20,351 nt of DNA. Source: a virus. The position numbers were made by a program, and so were the translations under genes. Positions 13,302-18,917 of the stretch are shown piece after piece. Under the pieces are notes generated by a model that saw nothing but the letters and a program-made list of their open reading frames with translations, had not been told where the DNA came from and made no database searches. Numbering within the stretch: the first letter of the stretch is position 1; each line of letters starts with the position of its first letter. Location of the stretch: IMG/VR virus record IMGVR_UViG_3300020400_000056, positions 1 to 20,351 of that record, one strand, 5' to 3'.

Positions 13302-13730
13302 ATGCAATGGACTTATCAAGGCAAAATAGTAGAACAAATATCAGAAGAATACGTGGGATTCGTATATCTAATTACTAATCTTACGAACGATAAAAAATAT
13401 ATTGGCAAAAAATTAGCACAATTTAAAGTAACTAAAAAACCCCTCAAAGGCAAAAAGAACAAAAGGCGTTCAACAAAAGAAAGTGATTGGAGAGACTATT
13501 GGGGATCCAGTGACACATTGAATGCAGACGTAGAAAACTTAGGCCCACAAAACTTTACCAGAGAAATACTGTATTACTGCACCAGCAGAGGTGAAATGAG
13601 CTACTTAGAAGCTCGTGAACAGTTTGATCGTAAAGTATTAGAAACTGATGAATATTACAACGGCATTATAAATGTACGAGTTGGCAGTTCTAAGGCACTT
13701 ATTGAATCACTAAACAGACACCAGTCATAA
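13302..13730 (+). CDS. GIY-YIG endonuclease-like protein (SegE type)
   Basis: 142 residues. After an N-terminal MQWTYQGKIVEQ comes 'GFVYLITNLTNDKKYIGKK', the GIY-YIG pair of strands (here FVY and YIG). Then a Lys/Arg-rich stretch (KPLKGKKNKRRS), 'SDWRDYWGSS', 'LGPQNFTREILYYC' and 'SYLEAREQF', and 'YYNGIINVRVG' near the end. This order matches phage SegE-like putative homing endonucleases. Many phage relatives may act in DNA repair or host DNA breakdown instead; nothing here shows intron or intein insertion. No strong ribosome site precedes the ATG. The WTYQG start matches the small protein at 12099. Confidence 0.8.
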   Translation: MQWTYQGKIVEQISEEYVGFVYLITNLTNDKKYIGKKLAQFKVTKKPLKGKKNKRRSTKESDWRDYWGSSDTLNADVENLGPQNFTREILYYCTSRGEMSYLEAREQFDRKVLETDEYYNGIINVRVGSSKALIESLNRHQS

Positions 13731-13740
13731 TATAGCTTCC

Positions 13741-13770
13741 TTGACTGTAGCATTGAGATTGTATTGTAAT
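13741..13770 (+). promoter_or_regulatory. Possible sigma70 promoter for the structured intergenic RNA
   Basis: TTGACT at 13741-13746 and TGTAAT at 13765-13770 with an 18-base spacer. It starts 11 bases after the GIY-YIG stop and would begin transcription near 13777, right where the G+C-rich foldable segment starts. It is weaker than the other TTGACA promoters here, but the placement is telling. Confidence 0.5.
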
Positions 13771-13776
13771 GATACT

Positions 13777-14025
13777 GTCGGATCTTGCTTGAAGCAAACA
13801 AACCAAACGAGTGGGCTCTACTGCGCCATTGTAACCCACGGATAGCTCAAAGGTCGTCGTTATGGCTGAGAGTGTTTCTGCGTTTAAGCAGTGCGTAAAG
13901 GGGTATAGCAAAACCGCCTCTGCCGAAAGGTTGCACTATAACGATGCTTTCTGGAGACGGGGTAATGACTCTGTTTTTTGCACTTGGCCGTAAACAGGCT
14001 AAGTGCGACTGAAAACAGGGTAATA
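13777..14025 (+). ncRNA. Candidate structured noncoding RNA between convergent genes
   Basis: No convincing reading frame occupies 13731-14096. Hand counting gives about 50% G+C for 13811-14020 against about 23% in 14021-14080 and about one third in nearby genes. Helices seen by eye: TTGCT/AGCAA (13785-13789 with 1393-13797, i.e. 13793-13797); GTGGG/CCCAC (13811-13815 with 13835-13839); a long stem AAAG plus CGTCGTTAT (13849-13863) with ATAACGATG plus CTTT (13938-13950), one G-U and a 2-base bulge; inside it CTGC/GCAG (13878-13891) and TATAG/CTATA (13904-13908 with 13936-13940); then CTCTGTTTT/AAAACAGGG (13969-13977 with 14012-14020) capped by a 10-bp stem (13980-13989 with 13997-14006). It does not match tRNA, tmRNA, RNase P or group I intron cores that I know. 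Strand is inferred from the promoter-like sequence upstream. Confidence 0.6.
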
Positions 14026-14050
14026 ACGAAATTAATCAAATAAAGAAATA

Positions 14051-14096: not shown

Positions 14097-14360
14097 TTAG
14101 TATGTGATTGTTTTTTTAGGATTCATAGCTTCTTTGGTCTTTTTAGCTTTTTCCGACATGCGTTCTTGTATTTCTCTAAGTTCTCTAAAACTAATTCTAT
14201 ATAGGTTATCCAATTGAAATGCTCCTTCACTGTAAAGCACTACATCATAAAGCATATTTCTGATATCTTTATTTGTTGATTCATATTTGTCTATTATTTT
14301 TTGAATTAACTCTTCATTTCCCCTAGTGTCTCTAAGTTTTTGCTGAAAAAAAAAGCTGGG
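14097..14360 (-). CDS. -1 frame extension of the gp26-type gene (frameshift product tail)
   Basis: In the -1 frame relative to the upstream gene, stops lie just before 14360, then the frame is open to the TAA at 14099-14097. If ribosomes slip back one base on the T9 run (14354-14346), the product gains 82 residues after F276. They begin QQKLRDTRGNEELIQKIIDK and include 'LDNLYRISFRELREIQERM' and 'KAKKTKEAMNPKK', a sensible helical charged sequence. The fused protein would be 358 residues. There is no good internal start: the first ATG in this frame is about 30 codons in and has no ribosome site. Alternatives are an insertion/deletion error in the homopolymer, or a separate small gene. The minimum length of the listed open frame hides it because it lacks a start codon. 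Confidence 0.65.
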   Translation of the reverse strand, partial: PSFFFQQKLRDTRGNEELIQKIIDKYESTNKDIRNMLYDVVLYSEGAFQLDNLYRISFRELREIQERMSEKAKKTKEAMNPKKTITY

Positions 14361-15172
14361 TTAAATTCAACAGCACCTTTGAAGTCTTTTCCACATTTTT
14401 CTGCTGTGCATGTAAAATCGAATTCTGATGGTATTCCATTTTTATTAAGTTTACGCAATTGTGTTTCAATTTTTTCCAATACATCTTTGTTGCTGTTTCC
14501 CAACCATTCTATAATCTGACTTTGTTCATTTACAACATCTCCATTTGGAGTAGTTACACTTACAATTCCATCACTTATCATTGCTATATTTGCGGCGGTA
14601 ATTTCTTCAACAGACTTAAAATAAGTATCGCTTAGTTGTCGTCTTGCTTCTTCTTCATTTGTTGATAGTTTACCCAATAATTGGCTTGTGGCGATACTTT
14701 TCATATTGTATGCATTTATACTGGCGAGTGTATTAGGTTTAAGTTCAATGATTAAACCTTTAATATCTAATGTCACTTGTTCATTTACTACAGTAACCTG
14801 AGATAGTACAGATGGTATGTCTATTTCGTATTCATTTCTTGTGTTGCAGTGTGTGCATCTAGTTTCTATTTGCATCTTTTTATCATATGTCGCCGCTCTA
14901 CTTGCTAGTAGTATTACATCAACATCTGGCATGCTTATTTCAAAAGGATCATAGATATCAGGAGCAATACTTTGAATAAGATTGTATATTGCTTCACCAT
15001 TGAATAAAGCATCTGGAATATTAAGCATAACTTCATCGCTGATTGTCATTGGCTTGATTCCAATTTCACCATCTTTAGTCAAATTAGGTTTTTGTTTGTA
15101 CCATCTACCTTGTGTTGGTATAGTGACATATATTTCTTTTTGTCTGTAATAATCAGTTAGTGGATTGTTCAT
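14306..15172 (-). CDS. 26: gp26-type baseplate hub subunit / tail assembly chaperone-like protein
   Basis: 288 residues in the zero frame. It begins MNNPLTDYYRQKEIYVTIPT, then 'GEIGIKPMTISDEVML' and 'PDALFNGEAIYNLIQSIAPD', the pattern of the T4 baseplate (gp26) family. Two cysteine pairs, CTHC (C106, C109) and CTAEKC (C255, C260), probably bind zinc. It ends 12 residues after a FFF encoded by nine Ts, where the -1 frame opens. T4 gp26 (208 residues) is a hub subunit. Size, the frame switch and the place beside a tape-measure-like gene recall tail assembly chaperones (G/GT type); this functional link is inference. The ATG at 15172 has only a weak AGGCG ribosome site and a late-promoter element 31 bases upstream. 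Confidence 0.75.
   Translation of the reverse strand: MNNPLTDYYRQKEIYVTIPTQGRWYKQKPNLTKDGEIGIKPMTISDEVMLNIPDALFNGEAIYNLIQSIAPDIYDPFEISMPDVDVILLASRAATYDKKMQIETRCTHCNTRNEYEIDIPSVLSQVTVVNEQVTLDIKGLIIELKPNTLASINAYNMKSIATSQLLGKLSTNEEEARRQLSDTYFKSVEEITAANIAMISDGIVSVTTPNGDVVNEQSQIIEWLGNSNKDVLEKIETQLRKLNKNGIPSEFDFTCTAEKCGKDFKGAVEFNPAFFFSKNLETLGEMKS
14346..14354 (-). other. Candidate -1 ribosomal frameshift site (T9 slippery run)
   Basis: The coding strand reads GCT TTT TTT TTC in the zero frame, giving T-TTT-TTT, a perfect XXXYYYZ slippery heptamer. The -1 frame has stops (TGA and TAA) within 25 bases upstream and is then open for 80-odd codons downstream. The run therefore sits at the start of the 50-base window where both frames are open. 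No clear downstream pseudoknot was seen by eye. Confidence 0.6.
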
Positions 15173-15232: not shown

Positions 15233-17188
15233 ATGGCAACTATCAATATTCCAGGACCAAGTGGACAAGCAATACCAATCGAAGTACCTGATTTTGCAAT
15301 GGAACAGACCCAAGAAAGGGTTTTAGGAGTAATGACTGACATAGCGGCACAGTTAGGTGCTGATGTAAGTGAACAGGATCAACAGTCAAAGACACTTGGA
15401 CAAATACTACGTGCTGAAAAAGAAGCAAACAATAAAGCCAGTAAAGAAAGAGATAATCTAGCAAAAGATTTTCGAAAGTATGGTAAGACACAACTAGACA
15501 ACATACAAAGTGCTATGTTCAGTAAAACTGAAGTAACAGGTATGATACAAAATACTCTATCAGCATTGGGTGCACCAGCACTAATGGGTACTACATTTGG
15601 TTTAATCATGCAACAAGCACAAGAAGTAGGTGATGCTTTTAGAGTTGGTGGTAGAGTTGGATTAAATTTTGCAGACAATTTATTAGAAGTTACAGGCACA
15701 CTTGCAACTGCTGGATTGGATCTAGGATCATTCAGTCAAATTGTAGGTACAAATGTTGCGGCAGTGAGACAGTTTGCTGATACAACACAACAAGGTAGCA
15801 TGCGTCTAATGAACATGATAACAGGTTTTAGAACAGCCGCAGAAGGTTTTGGAAATTTTGGACTAACTAGCGGACAAGCCGCAGAACTTATGGCTGAAGA
15901 ACTAGAACTAAGACGTTTGACTATGGATGTTGAAAGTTTTAGAAATTTAAAAGAACAAGAACTTGTAGATGCAATGGTGCAAAATATTGCACAACAAGAG
16001 GCAATGGCAAAAATTACAGGACAAGATGTAAAACAGCGTATAAAAGCACAAATGGAAGCACGTAAAGATGCTGTAGCACAATCATTTTTAAGGACAGCAA
16101 GTGAAGATACAAGGAAAAAATTTAATGAGCTAGCCGCGGCAGTGGAAAATATTCCTGGTGGAGGTGAACTATCAAAAGCTATACTAAACAGTGTGGCAAC
16201 TGGAGGTGCAGTAGATGCGGCGGCATTTGCTCCGCAACTAATAGGAGAATTAGGATCAGCTGGTAGAAACTTGATAGACTTTGTTGTTGGTAACATGAAC
16301 AATAGCAGTATGAGTGCAATAGATTTTGCTTCAGGTATGACTGAAGCCATATCCGACATTAAAACAAGTCAAGTTGATAGAGAAGAAGCACTTAGAGTAA
16401 GAGCGGCATTTGGAGATGAAACTGCAAGAACACTATTAACTTTGTCTTCTGAAATTGTAGATGCAGGTAACGATGTAGCTAAACGTATGATAACAACATT
16501 GGCAAATGTTGAAGACGCACAAGGTGACTATGCTTCAAGAGCTAGAGGCATTGCATCTCAATTAGAACAAACTGAAATGCAGTTTCAAAATCTTATTTTG
16601 CGTATGACGGATAGAATGGGATTTGCGGCTACAGGTCAAAATGTAGGTGCTTCTGGTATGATACTAGAATTACAAGACATGTTGCAAGCTGGATTAAGTT
16701 CTGATGTATTAACAAATATTTTTGAAACTGTAGGACGTGGTGCTGGATCTATGTTTATGGGACCAATTGCCAAAATGGGCAGAGGCGAACTCACAGGTGC
16801 AGATAGTGAAAGTGCTATGCTAATTGGTATGCTAATGCGTGGTTTTCCTGGACCAATGGGCACTATGGGTACTGCTTTAATGGTTCCTCAAGGAATCAAA
16901 GCTCTTGGAGACATGGTCAAAGAACTTACTAAATTATCTGATGCACAAATGAGAGAATTAGAGGAAACTGGCACTTATCAAGAAACAGAATTACAAAAAC
17001 TTGCTAAGAAATTTGGTGTAACTATTGAAAATCAAGAACGCATGGCGGCAGAGGAAGAAGAAAGAAGAAGAACACAAAATGAACTAAGAGGTAATGCAGA
17101 AACTATTGTAAAATTATTACCTGAAGATATTAAAAGATTAGCAGATGAGATTAACAGACGCAATGCAGAACATAACAATACCAATTAA
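15233..17188 (+). CDS. Putative tail tape-measure protein (gp29-like role)
   Basis: 651 residues, almost wholly helical in character. It has a charged N-terminal segment (~50-90), an Ala/Gly-rich hydrophobic part (~105-165, with 'LGAPALMGTTFGLIMQQAQ'), long amphipathic helices (~190-300), a second Gly/Met-rich hydrophobic part (~495-560, with 'MGPIAKMGRG' and 'GFPGPMGTMGTALM'), and a charged helical end (~565-651, with 'EEEERRRTQNE'). Large helical proteins with hydrophobic patches next to tail assembly chaperone genes are typically tape measures. Its length is close to T4 gp29 (590), which sets a ~100 nm tail. I see no signature motif, so another virion protein is possible. The ribosome site is weak; a late promoter lies upstream. 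Confidence 0.5.
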   Translation: MATINIPGPSGQAIPIEVPDFAMEQTQERVLGVMTDIAAQLGADVSEQDQQSKTLGQILRAEKEANNKASKERDNLAKDFRKYGKTQLDNIQSAMFSKTEVTGMIQNTLSALGAPALMGTTFGLIMQQAQEVGDAFRVGGRVGLNFADNLLEVTGTLATAGLDLGSFSQIVGTNVAAVRQFADTTQQGSMRLMNMITGFRTAAEGFGNFGLTSGQAAELMAEELELRRLTMDVESFRNLKEQELVDAMVQNIAQQEAMAKITGQDVKQRIKAQMEARKDAVAQSFLRTASEDTRKKFNELAAAVENIPGGGELSKAILNSVATGGAVDAAAFAPQLIGELGSAGRNLIDFVVGNMNNSSMSAIDFASGMTEAISDIKTSQVDREEALRVRAAFGDETARTLLTLSSEIVDAGNDVAKRMITTLANVEDAQGDYASRARGIASQLEQTEMQFQNLILRMTDRMGFAATGQNVGASGMILELQDMLQAGLSSDVLTNIFETVGRGAGSMFMGPIAKMGRGELTGADSESAMLIGMLMRGFPGPMGTMGTALMVPQGIKALGDMVKELTKLSDAQMRELEETGTYQETELQKLAKKFGVTIENQERMAAEEEERRRTQNELRGNAETIVKLLPEDIKRLADEINRRNAEHNNTN

Positions 17189-17240: not shown

Positions 17241-18917
17241 ATGAGTTGGAAAAAACATTTTACTATGTATGGCGGACAATCCGCTGATAGCATGAAACCT
17301 AGCAGTGCTAGTAGATTTCAAAGCTGGTTACCTGAAGTATACAGTGGTCAGCCTAATCGTGTTGAAAGATATGCTCAATACGATCAAATGGACATGGACA
17401 GTGAAATAAATGCCGCTATTGATATTATCAGTGAATTTAGTACACAAGTAGATGAAACATCTAAACTTCCATTTAAAATAAATTACAAAGAAAAAGCAAC
17501 AGAAAGCGAAACCAAAATATTAGAGCAAACACTGCAACAATGGTGTGCTTTACAAGATTGGGATAAACGCATTTTCCGTATGTTTAGAAATACAATCAAA
17601 TATGGTGATCAGTTTTTTATAAGAGATCCTGAAACTTGGGAATTGTATTATGTAAATCCAGTAGATGTTACCAAATGTGTAGTTAATGAAGCCAAAGGTA
17701 AAAAGCCTGAACAGTATATTATTAAAAACATAGATTTAAACATGCAGGAAAAAACTGTCAGCAAGCCTGTTCAACACAGTCAAACATACGGTACTGTCAA
17801 TAGCATGATGCGTGGTCAGGTAATTGACAAAGGTGCATATGGTGCTTATTCAGGTCAATATGATCCGGGTAGTGGTAATGTACAAGAATATACAGTTGAT
17901 GCAAAACATGTAGTACATTTGGGTATGACTGAAGGCATGGATAATAATTATCCGTTTGGTGCAAGTATTTTAGATCCTATCTTTAAAACCTACAAACAAA
18001 AAGAACTACTAGAAGACAGTATTATTATCTACAGAGTACAACGTGCTCCTGAACGCAGAGTTTTTTATGTAGATGTAGGCAACATGCCGCCAAACAAAGC
18101 CATGGGTTTTGTTGAACGTGTTAAGAACGAGATACATCAAAAACGTATTCCTAACAAAACAGGTGGTGGTACTACTATTATGGATGCCGCATACAATCCA
18201 TTAAGCATTATGGAGGACTACTTTTTTGCACAAACTGCTGAAGGCAGAGGTAGCAAAGTTGAAGTATTACCTGGTGGAGAAAATTTAGGTCAGATTGATG
18301 ACCTAAGATATTTTACAAACAAAATGCTAAGAGCATTACGTGTACCTAGCAGTTATCTGCCAACAGGTCCAGATGATGGTACAGCTAGTTATGTAGATGG
18401 TAGAGTAGGTACTGCTTTTATTCAAGAATATAGATTCAATCAATATTGCATGAGATTACAAGGTGCAATTGCTCCTACTATGGATATGGAATTTAAACTG
18501 TTTATGAAAAACAAAGGCATTAGTATTGATGCTGGATTGTTTGATTTAGTATTTGTTGAACCACAGAGTTTTAGCACATACAAAGAAATAGAAATACACA
18601 ATGCAAGAGCCGCAGTATTTGGTAACTTGGAAGGTGTGCAATATCTCAGCAGAAGATTTATACTTGAAAAGTACTTAGGATGGAATGAAGAAGAAATTCT
18701 AAGGAATGAAAGAATGTGGGAAGAAGAAAATCAATCAGGTGTAACACCTGAAGCAGATAGTATGCCAGGTTTAGGTAACGTTGGTGTACGTGGTTTTGAT
18801 ATACCTGACGGAGCTCCAGATGATATTCCAACTGATGCTCCTGCAGGAGAAGAAACTGAAGGTGCAAGCCCTATTAGTGGAGCAGAAGCCGCACCAACGG
18901 GAGATGAAGATGCGTAG
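17241..18917 (+). CDS. 20: Portal vertex protein gp20
   Basis: 558 residues. The N-terminal region has 'RFQSWLPEVYSGQPNRVERY' and 'YDQMDMDSEINAAIDIISEF', the strongly conserved T4-like portal start. Further on are 'IKYGDQFFIRDP', 'YPFGASILDPIFKTYKQKEL', 'IIYRVQRAPERRVFYVDVGN' and 'LRYFTNKMLRALRVPSSYLP', all typical of gp20. Twelve copies form the DNA gateway of the head and the start point of prohead assembly. The C-terminal ~60 residues are acidic, Gly/Pro-rich and likely disordered (PDGAPDDIPTDAPAGEE). Length is near T4 gp20 (524). A weak AGAG ribosome site lies before the ATG. The stop overlaps the start of the following small gene, as gp67 follows gp20 in T4. Confidence 0.96.
   Translation: MSWKKHFTMYGGQSADSMKPSSASRFQSWLPEVYSGQPNRVERYAQYDQMDMDSEINAAIDIISEFSTQVDETSKLPFKINYKEKATESETKILEQTLQQWCALQDWDKRIFRMFRNTIKYGDQFFIRDPETWELYYVNPVDVTKCVVNEAKGKKPEQYIIKNIDLNMQEKTVSKPVQHSQTYGTVNSMMRGQVIDKGAYGAYSGQYDPGSGNVQEYTVDAKHVVHLGMTEGMDNNYPFGASILDPIFKTYKQKELLEDSIIIYRVQRAPERRVFYVDVGNMPPNKAMGFVERVKNEIHQKRIPNKTGGGTTIMDAAYNPLSIMEDYFFAQTAEGRGSKVEVLPGGENLGQIDDLRYFTNKMLRALRVPSSYLPTGPDDGTASYVDGRVGTAFIQEYRFNQYCMRLQGAIAPTMDMEFKLFMKNKGISIDAGLFDLVFVEPQSFSTYKEIEIHNARAAVFGNLEGVQYLSRRFILEKYLGWNEEEILRNERMWEEENQSGVTPEADSMPGLGNVGVRGFDIPDGAPDDIPTDAPAGEETEGASPISGAEAAPTGDEDA

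Follow-up and report, generated by a model that had tools for sequence, protein, structure and literature searches.

Across long-tailed phages, "except T4", frameshifting of the lambda G-T type in tail assembly chaperone genes is a widely conserved feature (Atkins et al. 2016). T4 genetics lists gp26 and gp51, the products of two separate genes, as hub assembly chaperones. For cyanophages and vibriophages, a gp51 without the first ~200 residues that matches the C-terminus of gp51 has been described (Sullivan et al. 2010, PMC3037559). According to papers that cite it, Vladimirov et al. 2022 reported chaperone frameshifting in T4-like phages together with the gp26/gp51 exception. This overtakes a preliminary description of the locus analyzed here, in which a slip-produced form in a T4-like phage was regarded as notable. 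PRFect takes from Vladimirov et al. 2022 that a short gene together with a longer fusion gene stands in for frameshifting in some T4-like phages, and the Adele paper cites the same source for polyT -1 signals in T4-like TAC-N genes.

As far as these citing passages go, chaperone frameshifting in T4-like phages is already in print. Since the principle has been published, the gain of our analysis is its breadth, the placement of the duplication and a corrected annotation. Added here are an uncultured marine clade with a nine-T double site, the evidence from silent sites and profiles, and a position in the tree for the gp26/gp51 duplication. Judged against Vladimirov et al. 2022 as represented in the citing papers, the jumbo phages may be an addition as well.

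The window, i.e. the whole stretch of DNA analyzed, comprises an IMG/VR record in full (20,351 bases) and comes from an uncultured T4-like myovirus. The features referred to below are:

13302-13730, plus strand: SegE-like GIY-YIG nuclease (PF19835, E=1.3e-35)
14097..14344, minus strand: C-terminal tail in the -1 frame (TAC-C domain), 82 codons, QQKLRD...TITY, then stop (profile match, dN/dS, AlphaFold2)
14306..15172, minus strand: tail assembly chaperone of the T4 gp26 type, the short form (TAC-N) of 288 aa in the 0 frame (PF12322, PHROG 150)
14345..14354, minus strand: slippery site GC-T_TTT_TTT_TTC with two overlapping -1 heptamers (from the sequence; same site in 64/64 related genes)
14361..14369 (about), minus strand: TGA and TAA, which shut the -1 frame a little upstream of the slip (from the sequence)
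15233..17188, plus strand: divergent neighbour of 651 aa, probably a tape measure or else a structural protein of tail or virion (hhalign)
17241..18917, plus strand: neighbouring gene used to find 80 marine relatives; jumbo phages have a gp20-type portal gene in this position

The 288-aa protein matched PF12322 (T4_baseplate) with E=1.9e-16 and 60.8 bits at a cut-off of 24.5 bits, and PHROG 150 (baseplate hub) with E=1.3e-18. Close to the end of its gene lies a run of nine Ts (14354..14346), which is the longest single-base run of the window and is read in frame as GCT TTT TTT TTC, followed by AGC. Two overlapping heptamers are contained in it, T_TTT_TTT at 14354-14348 and T_TTT_TTC at 14351-14345, of which T_TTT_TTC is the one common to distant relatives. 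After F276 the 0 frame continues for twelve codons, SKNLETLGEMKS, and is then closed by TAA. The -1 frame is open from Q277 for 82 codons up to a stop at 14099-14097, which would give a fusion product of 276+82 = 358 aa. Because TGA and TAA are located just upstream of the run, the -1 frame can be entered only at or near the slip site. The first ATG, GTG or TTG in this frame is codon 35 of the open stretch, so that the whole tail is without a usable canonical start. The anatomy given in the preliminary description was thus reproduced, namely a 288-codon gene ending 12 codons past the nine-T run, a -1 frame shut by TGA and TAA and then open for 82 codons, and a tail that lacks a usable start of its own.

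In the structure model the body was confident up to the slip region (pLDDT 83) and the 0-frame end beyond it was disordered. The -1 tail was predicted to be helical by AlphaFold2 (pLDDT 88). A scan of the window for Rfam families, tRNA and tmRNA found none.

Two side observations concern the body. C106, C109, C255 and C260 of the gene at 14306-15172 form two Cys pairs that are invariant in the jumbo and marine relatives, which suggests a zinc-binding chaperone body. Furthermore, a comparison of the body fold with BFVD matched unnamed proteins of the giant phages Ralstonia phiRSL1, RSF1 and RP12 and Erwinia Special G, and additionally proteins of Bacillus SP-15, Campylobacter CP220 and Ackermannviridae, with E values from 1e-4 to 1e-11. 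Going by these modelled folds, unrecognised tail chaperones are possible in the respective phage groups.

We consider it very probable that -1 ribosomal frameshifting yields two proteins from this gene, TAC-N of 288 aa and TAC-NC of 358 aa. Most ribosomes would read the 0 frame and produce the gp26-type body. A fraction of them would slip back by one base while tRNA-Phe occupies both the P and the A site on T_TTT_TTC (or the preceding T_TTT_TTT), and would go on reading CAG CAA AAA..., resulting in ...NPAFFF-QQKLRD... A slip one codon earlier would lead to the identical 358-aa protein. This long form would be a gp51-type TAC-NC whose C-terminal domain is helical. If the proteins act like lambda gpG/gpGT, the bodies would coat the tape measure protein, the tail domain would recruit tail-tube subunits and the slip rate would set the ratio of short to long form. 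Both products are presumably made. A chaperone function would be expected from T4 genetics and from lambda gpG/gpGT.

A search of viral contigs with the chaperone protein itself found no relatives. The marine relatives were obtained with the gene at 17241..18917, whose portal position is based on annotated portal genes in PA5oct, GAP32, 121Q and Phosso. The chaperone gene was present in 55 marine IMG/VR contigs with protein identities of 32-60%, and all 55 had the in-phase heptamer followed by an open, homologous -1 frame. For the codon statistics the marine set was reduced to 41 distinct genes, including that of the window. Forty of these read (GCT/AGT/ACT/TCT) TTT TTT TTC, and the remaining one reads CTT TTT TTC.

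The silent sites of the slip region were extremely conserved. Among the 255 columns of a codon alignment built from these genes, the four slip codons took ranks 1-4 in third-base conservation, with 0.56 for the median column. The last Phe codon of the run was TTC in 41/41 genes, whereas Phe elsewhere was encoded by TTT 85% of the time. Likewise, the codon preceding the Phe run ended in T in 41/41 genes, compared to only 42% of the Ala, Ser and Thr codons elsewhere. A final TTT in front of the codon that usually follows, which starts with A, would often create a stop or alter the residue in the -1 frame. Past the 0-frame stop the -1 frame had a dN/dS of 0.14-0.37 in the closest marine pairs; by this measure of its codons, the tail is under selection as a protein.

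Among annotated phages, tblastn matched the gene only in jumbo T4-like myoviruses, and most of the alignments end at residue 276-277, which is the slip point. Eighteen jumbo records were included: Atu_ph07, PA5oct, PAC2, GAP32, 121Q, Phosso, Vibrio 2.275.O, BF, CBB, XbC2, Kaldavass, XaC1, XacN1, 7t3, RAS14, RaK2, Hallingskeid and SCTP-2. In each of them an in-phase T_TTT_TTC or T_TTT_TTT lies shortly before the end of the gene. The -1 tails are 70-85 aa in size and start with FFR, FFQ or FFY. A profile of the tails of 18 other phages, from which the window was excluded, matched the tail of the window with 35 bits, and the 18-row tail profile found it in a search of the whole record with E=9e-7.

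The same gene end with T_TTT_TTC/T and a -1 tail was present in 5/5 single-copy cyano-, pelagi-, vibrio- and sinorhizobium-phages, i.e. S-PM2, P-SSM2, HTVC008M, KVP40 and phiM12; one of their tails reads FFRISMAHEDLESYYKINFALMQHHKYSLTELENMMPWEREIYL. Together with the 41 distinct marine and the 18 jumbo-phage genes these amount to 64 related genes, and all 64 share the position of an in-phase T_TTT_TTC/T heptamer and continue into a homologous -1 tail, which goes far beyond what chance would produce. The preliminary description had proposed a programmed -1 frameshift and an alignment of homologues as a check on it. The slippery run and the -1 frame were kept in every relative examined, whether marine, jumbo or single-copy phage, and the proposal is supported.

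In jumbo phages GenBank often lists a part of the tail as a separate hypothetical gene, which lies in the same -1 frame. As observed here, PBI_121Q_595 and GAP32_242 (PHROG 18291) correspond to chaperone -1 tails, often annotated with a truncated N-terminus. Jumbo tail ORFs of this kind are located at L004:3867-4043, L005:3828-4037, L006:3828-4058, L007:3849-4052 and at other loci.

A nine-base homopolymer is a typical site of sequencing or assembly errors, and an error of this kind, with the frames joined in the real DNA, was the main rival explanation in the preliminary description. This rival fails. The three-Phe, nine-T-type run stands in the same phase in 51/55 marine loci from many different metagenomes, finished isolate genomes have the two-frame layout with shorter runs, and a real in-frame fusion looks different, as in the two-copy phages. 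The frozen silent sites, the dN/dS of the tail and the site kept in the relatives together exclude a homopolymer error and indicate that the -1 frame is selected as a protein. The error was rejected, with a negligible probability left to it, as the nine-T run recurs in independent contigs in which the synonymous positions are frozen. Next to no probability is given to a separate small gene with its own start either, which would be translated by reinitiation or coupling at the stop codon. Starts that would suit it do occur: in 121Q, Phosso and Atu_ph07 one of the first few codons of the -1 frame is an ATG, which lies close to the 0-frame stop or overlaps it. Small ORFs are also annotated in GAP32, 121Q, BF, CBB and others. 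However, the first ATG, GTG or TTG of the window comes only at codon 35, the -1 frame of PA5oct contains none, and start positions are scattered among the marine relatives. The homology of the tails moreover begins right at the slip codons (FFR..LL / FFQ.QL), whose silent sites are frozen, and gp51 carries this tail as an in-frame continuation of its body. As a general explanation the separate gene was rejected because its starts are unconserved and PA5oct is start-less. A separate downstream gene in homologues, which the preliminary description had named as evidence that would count against the frameshift, was encountered only as a GenBank annotation in some jumbo phages.

Slippage of the RNA polymerase on the nine-T run would produce the long form from a mixed mRNA population. 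Such slippage is known for A/T runs of nine bases, and exactly nine Ts are kept in 40/41 distinct marine genes, window included. On the other hand, most jumbo phages, the cyanophages and KVP40 have six or seven Ts, which is too short for efficient slippage, and the feature conserved in common is the in-phase tandem tRNA-Phe heptamer. Some relatives also possess stimulators of the ribosomal type, namely hairpins downstream and, in two cyanophages, an SD-like GGAGG 10 nt upstream, which likewise speak against the polymerase. We hold polymerase slippage to be very unlikely, and it would rather be the ribosomes that slip.

The putative stimulators of ribosomal frameshifting differ between the relatives. 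In P-SSM2 and S-PM2 the SD-like GGAGG 10 nt upstream is combined with a strong hairpin right after T_TTT_TTC. Downstream hairpins had z -3.8 in P-SSM2, -3.7 in S-PM2 and -4.3 in KVP40, and SD-like elements upstream of the slip were found in the cyanophage-type group, which comprises HTVC008M, KVP40, phiM12 and the two cyanophages. The arrangement of the slip site in P-SSM2 (L027) and S-PM2 (L028) is dnaX-like. On the 3' side of the slip site of the window only a weak stem was present (-5.5 kcal/mol, z -1.5), and no SD-like element was found upstream of the slip in the window or in the marine genes shown. The nine-T triple-Phe double heptamer might be a distinct marine signal that replaces the one stimulated by hairpin and SD-like element, with a different short to long ratio and possibly with a part of polymerase slippage; we regard this as rather unlikely.

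In line with the preliminary description, T4 has separate genes for gp26 and gp51, i.e. two PF12322 copies and no frameshift. Both are PF12322 proteins, and gp51 spans the PHROG 150 profile to its end. Since the window is a 20 kb piece, the copy counts rest on other, complete genomes. A six-frame PF12322 search of 24 complete genomes counted two copies each for T4 and RB49, and a single one for 21 others; SCTP-2, which had been found by BLAST, was below the threshold of this search. The single-copy genomes have the slip site at the junction, whereas T4 and RB49 have two copies instead. Furthermore, a profile of the five single-copy -1 tails matched the C-terminus of gp51, as the only match, in each of five two-copy genomes, with E values of 7e-10 (Aeromonas 31), 1e-8 (RB49), 1e-4 (RB43), 2e-4 (T4) and 7e-4 (Acinetobacter PhT2). 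Judged by this profile match, gp51 contains in frame the tail that the other phages encode in the -1 frame.

In the tree, gp26 and gp51 fall into a single clade (96/98). KVP40 is placed next to it with weak support (82/69), followed by the cyanophage group, and the jumbo and window lineages are found on the side opposite to gp26/gp51, KVP40 and the cyanophages. The row RB43_a is an unrelated gene with a long branch and was ignored. Since the gp51 tail is an in-frame -1 tail and gp26 and gp51 group together, a gene duplication appears to have taken the place of the frameshift in T4, RB49 and their allies. Read most simply, a single gene with a -1 frameshift is ancestral, and the duplication took place in T4-type phages within the Straboviridae.

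The divergent 651-aa neighbour at 15233..17188 matched a virion protein of jumbo phages in the same position (98.8% in hhalign), the counterpart of which is annotated in RaK2 as similar to tape measure protein. A comparison with T4 gp29 detected no match, and the cyanophage genes downstream of the chaperone gave no signal. The neighbour is likely a tape measure, as far as profile similarity and position indicate.

Between the GIY-YIG ORF and the chaperone gene, a candidate structured noncoding RNA of ~290 nt was observed at about 13745-14035 on the plus strand. Its nucleotide identity reaches 92% between marine relatives that share only about 50% identity in their chaperones. Folding gave z -2.5 for the plus and -0.4 for the minus strand. 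Eight helices showed covariation, with 98.5% of cells paired (slid controls 30-48%) and 67 two-sided changes compared to 23.5 in shuffles. The RNA was found in 79 viral contigs, e.g. at L084:3022-3355, L056:3510-3850 and L094:1010-1345; it was found neither in isolate phages by blastn nor in GTDB genomes by exact pattern, and Rfam contained no credible match. It is a candidate for a new structured RNA outside the Rfam families. The GIY-YIG gene is 70-93% identical in most relatives and lies directly upstream of the RNA in 38/38 and 72/72 loci with room for it; Melnitz phage carries a 76% identical GIY-YIG elsewhere without the RNA. Nuclease and RNA may possibly act as a pair.

Taken as a large independent comparative case, these data point to chaperone -1 frameshifting as widespread and probably ancestral in T4-like phages. 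The separate gp26 and gp51 of T4 would then be derived, having arisen by a duplication that made slipping unnecessary. Small "hypothetical" genes of jumbo phages (PHROG 18291 and similar) and the truncated cyanophage "gp51" would be misannotated frameshift tails.

When compared to lambda gpG/gpGT, the gene of the window appears to work in the same way, with a short form and a -1 extended form. It has a heptamer of the type X_XXY_YYZ in phase near its 3' end and an open -1 frame, as in genes of the lambda G/GT type. Different from lambda, the slippery sequence is T_TTT_TTY and the neighbouring gene is divergent, not co-directional. The likeness is one of working, and we make no claim of homology to lambda gpG or HK97 gp13: a PDB sequence search with the chaperone found no relatives, and a fold search of the PDB with the body gave none that was significant (best chaperone, 2ob9 of HK97, E=4.3).

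The small ORF described as cyanophage gp51 by Sullivan et al. 2010 (PMC3037559) is equivalent to the -1 tail, but was treated there as a short separate gene, and the text of that paper does not mention frameshifting. The short gp26 and the long gp51 of T4, the latter a baseplate hub assembly catalyst, share the PF12322 family with the window gene, and the C-terminal tail of gp51 is homologous to the -1 tails; in contrast, they are separate genes without a frameshift. The PF12322 chaperones of S-PM2, P-SSM2, KVP40 and the jumbo phages agree with the window gene in body family, homologous -1 tail and a slip at conserved Phe-Phe near the 3' end, and have one copy per genome. The cyanophages have a strong downstream hairpin and an SD-like element, which the marine clade lacks. 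Whereas these T4-like single-gene chaperones contain one T_TTT_TTC, the marine clade has three Phe codons, nine Ts and two overlapping heptamers.
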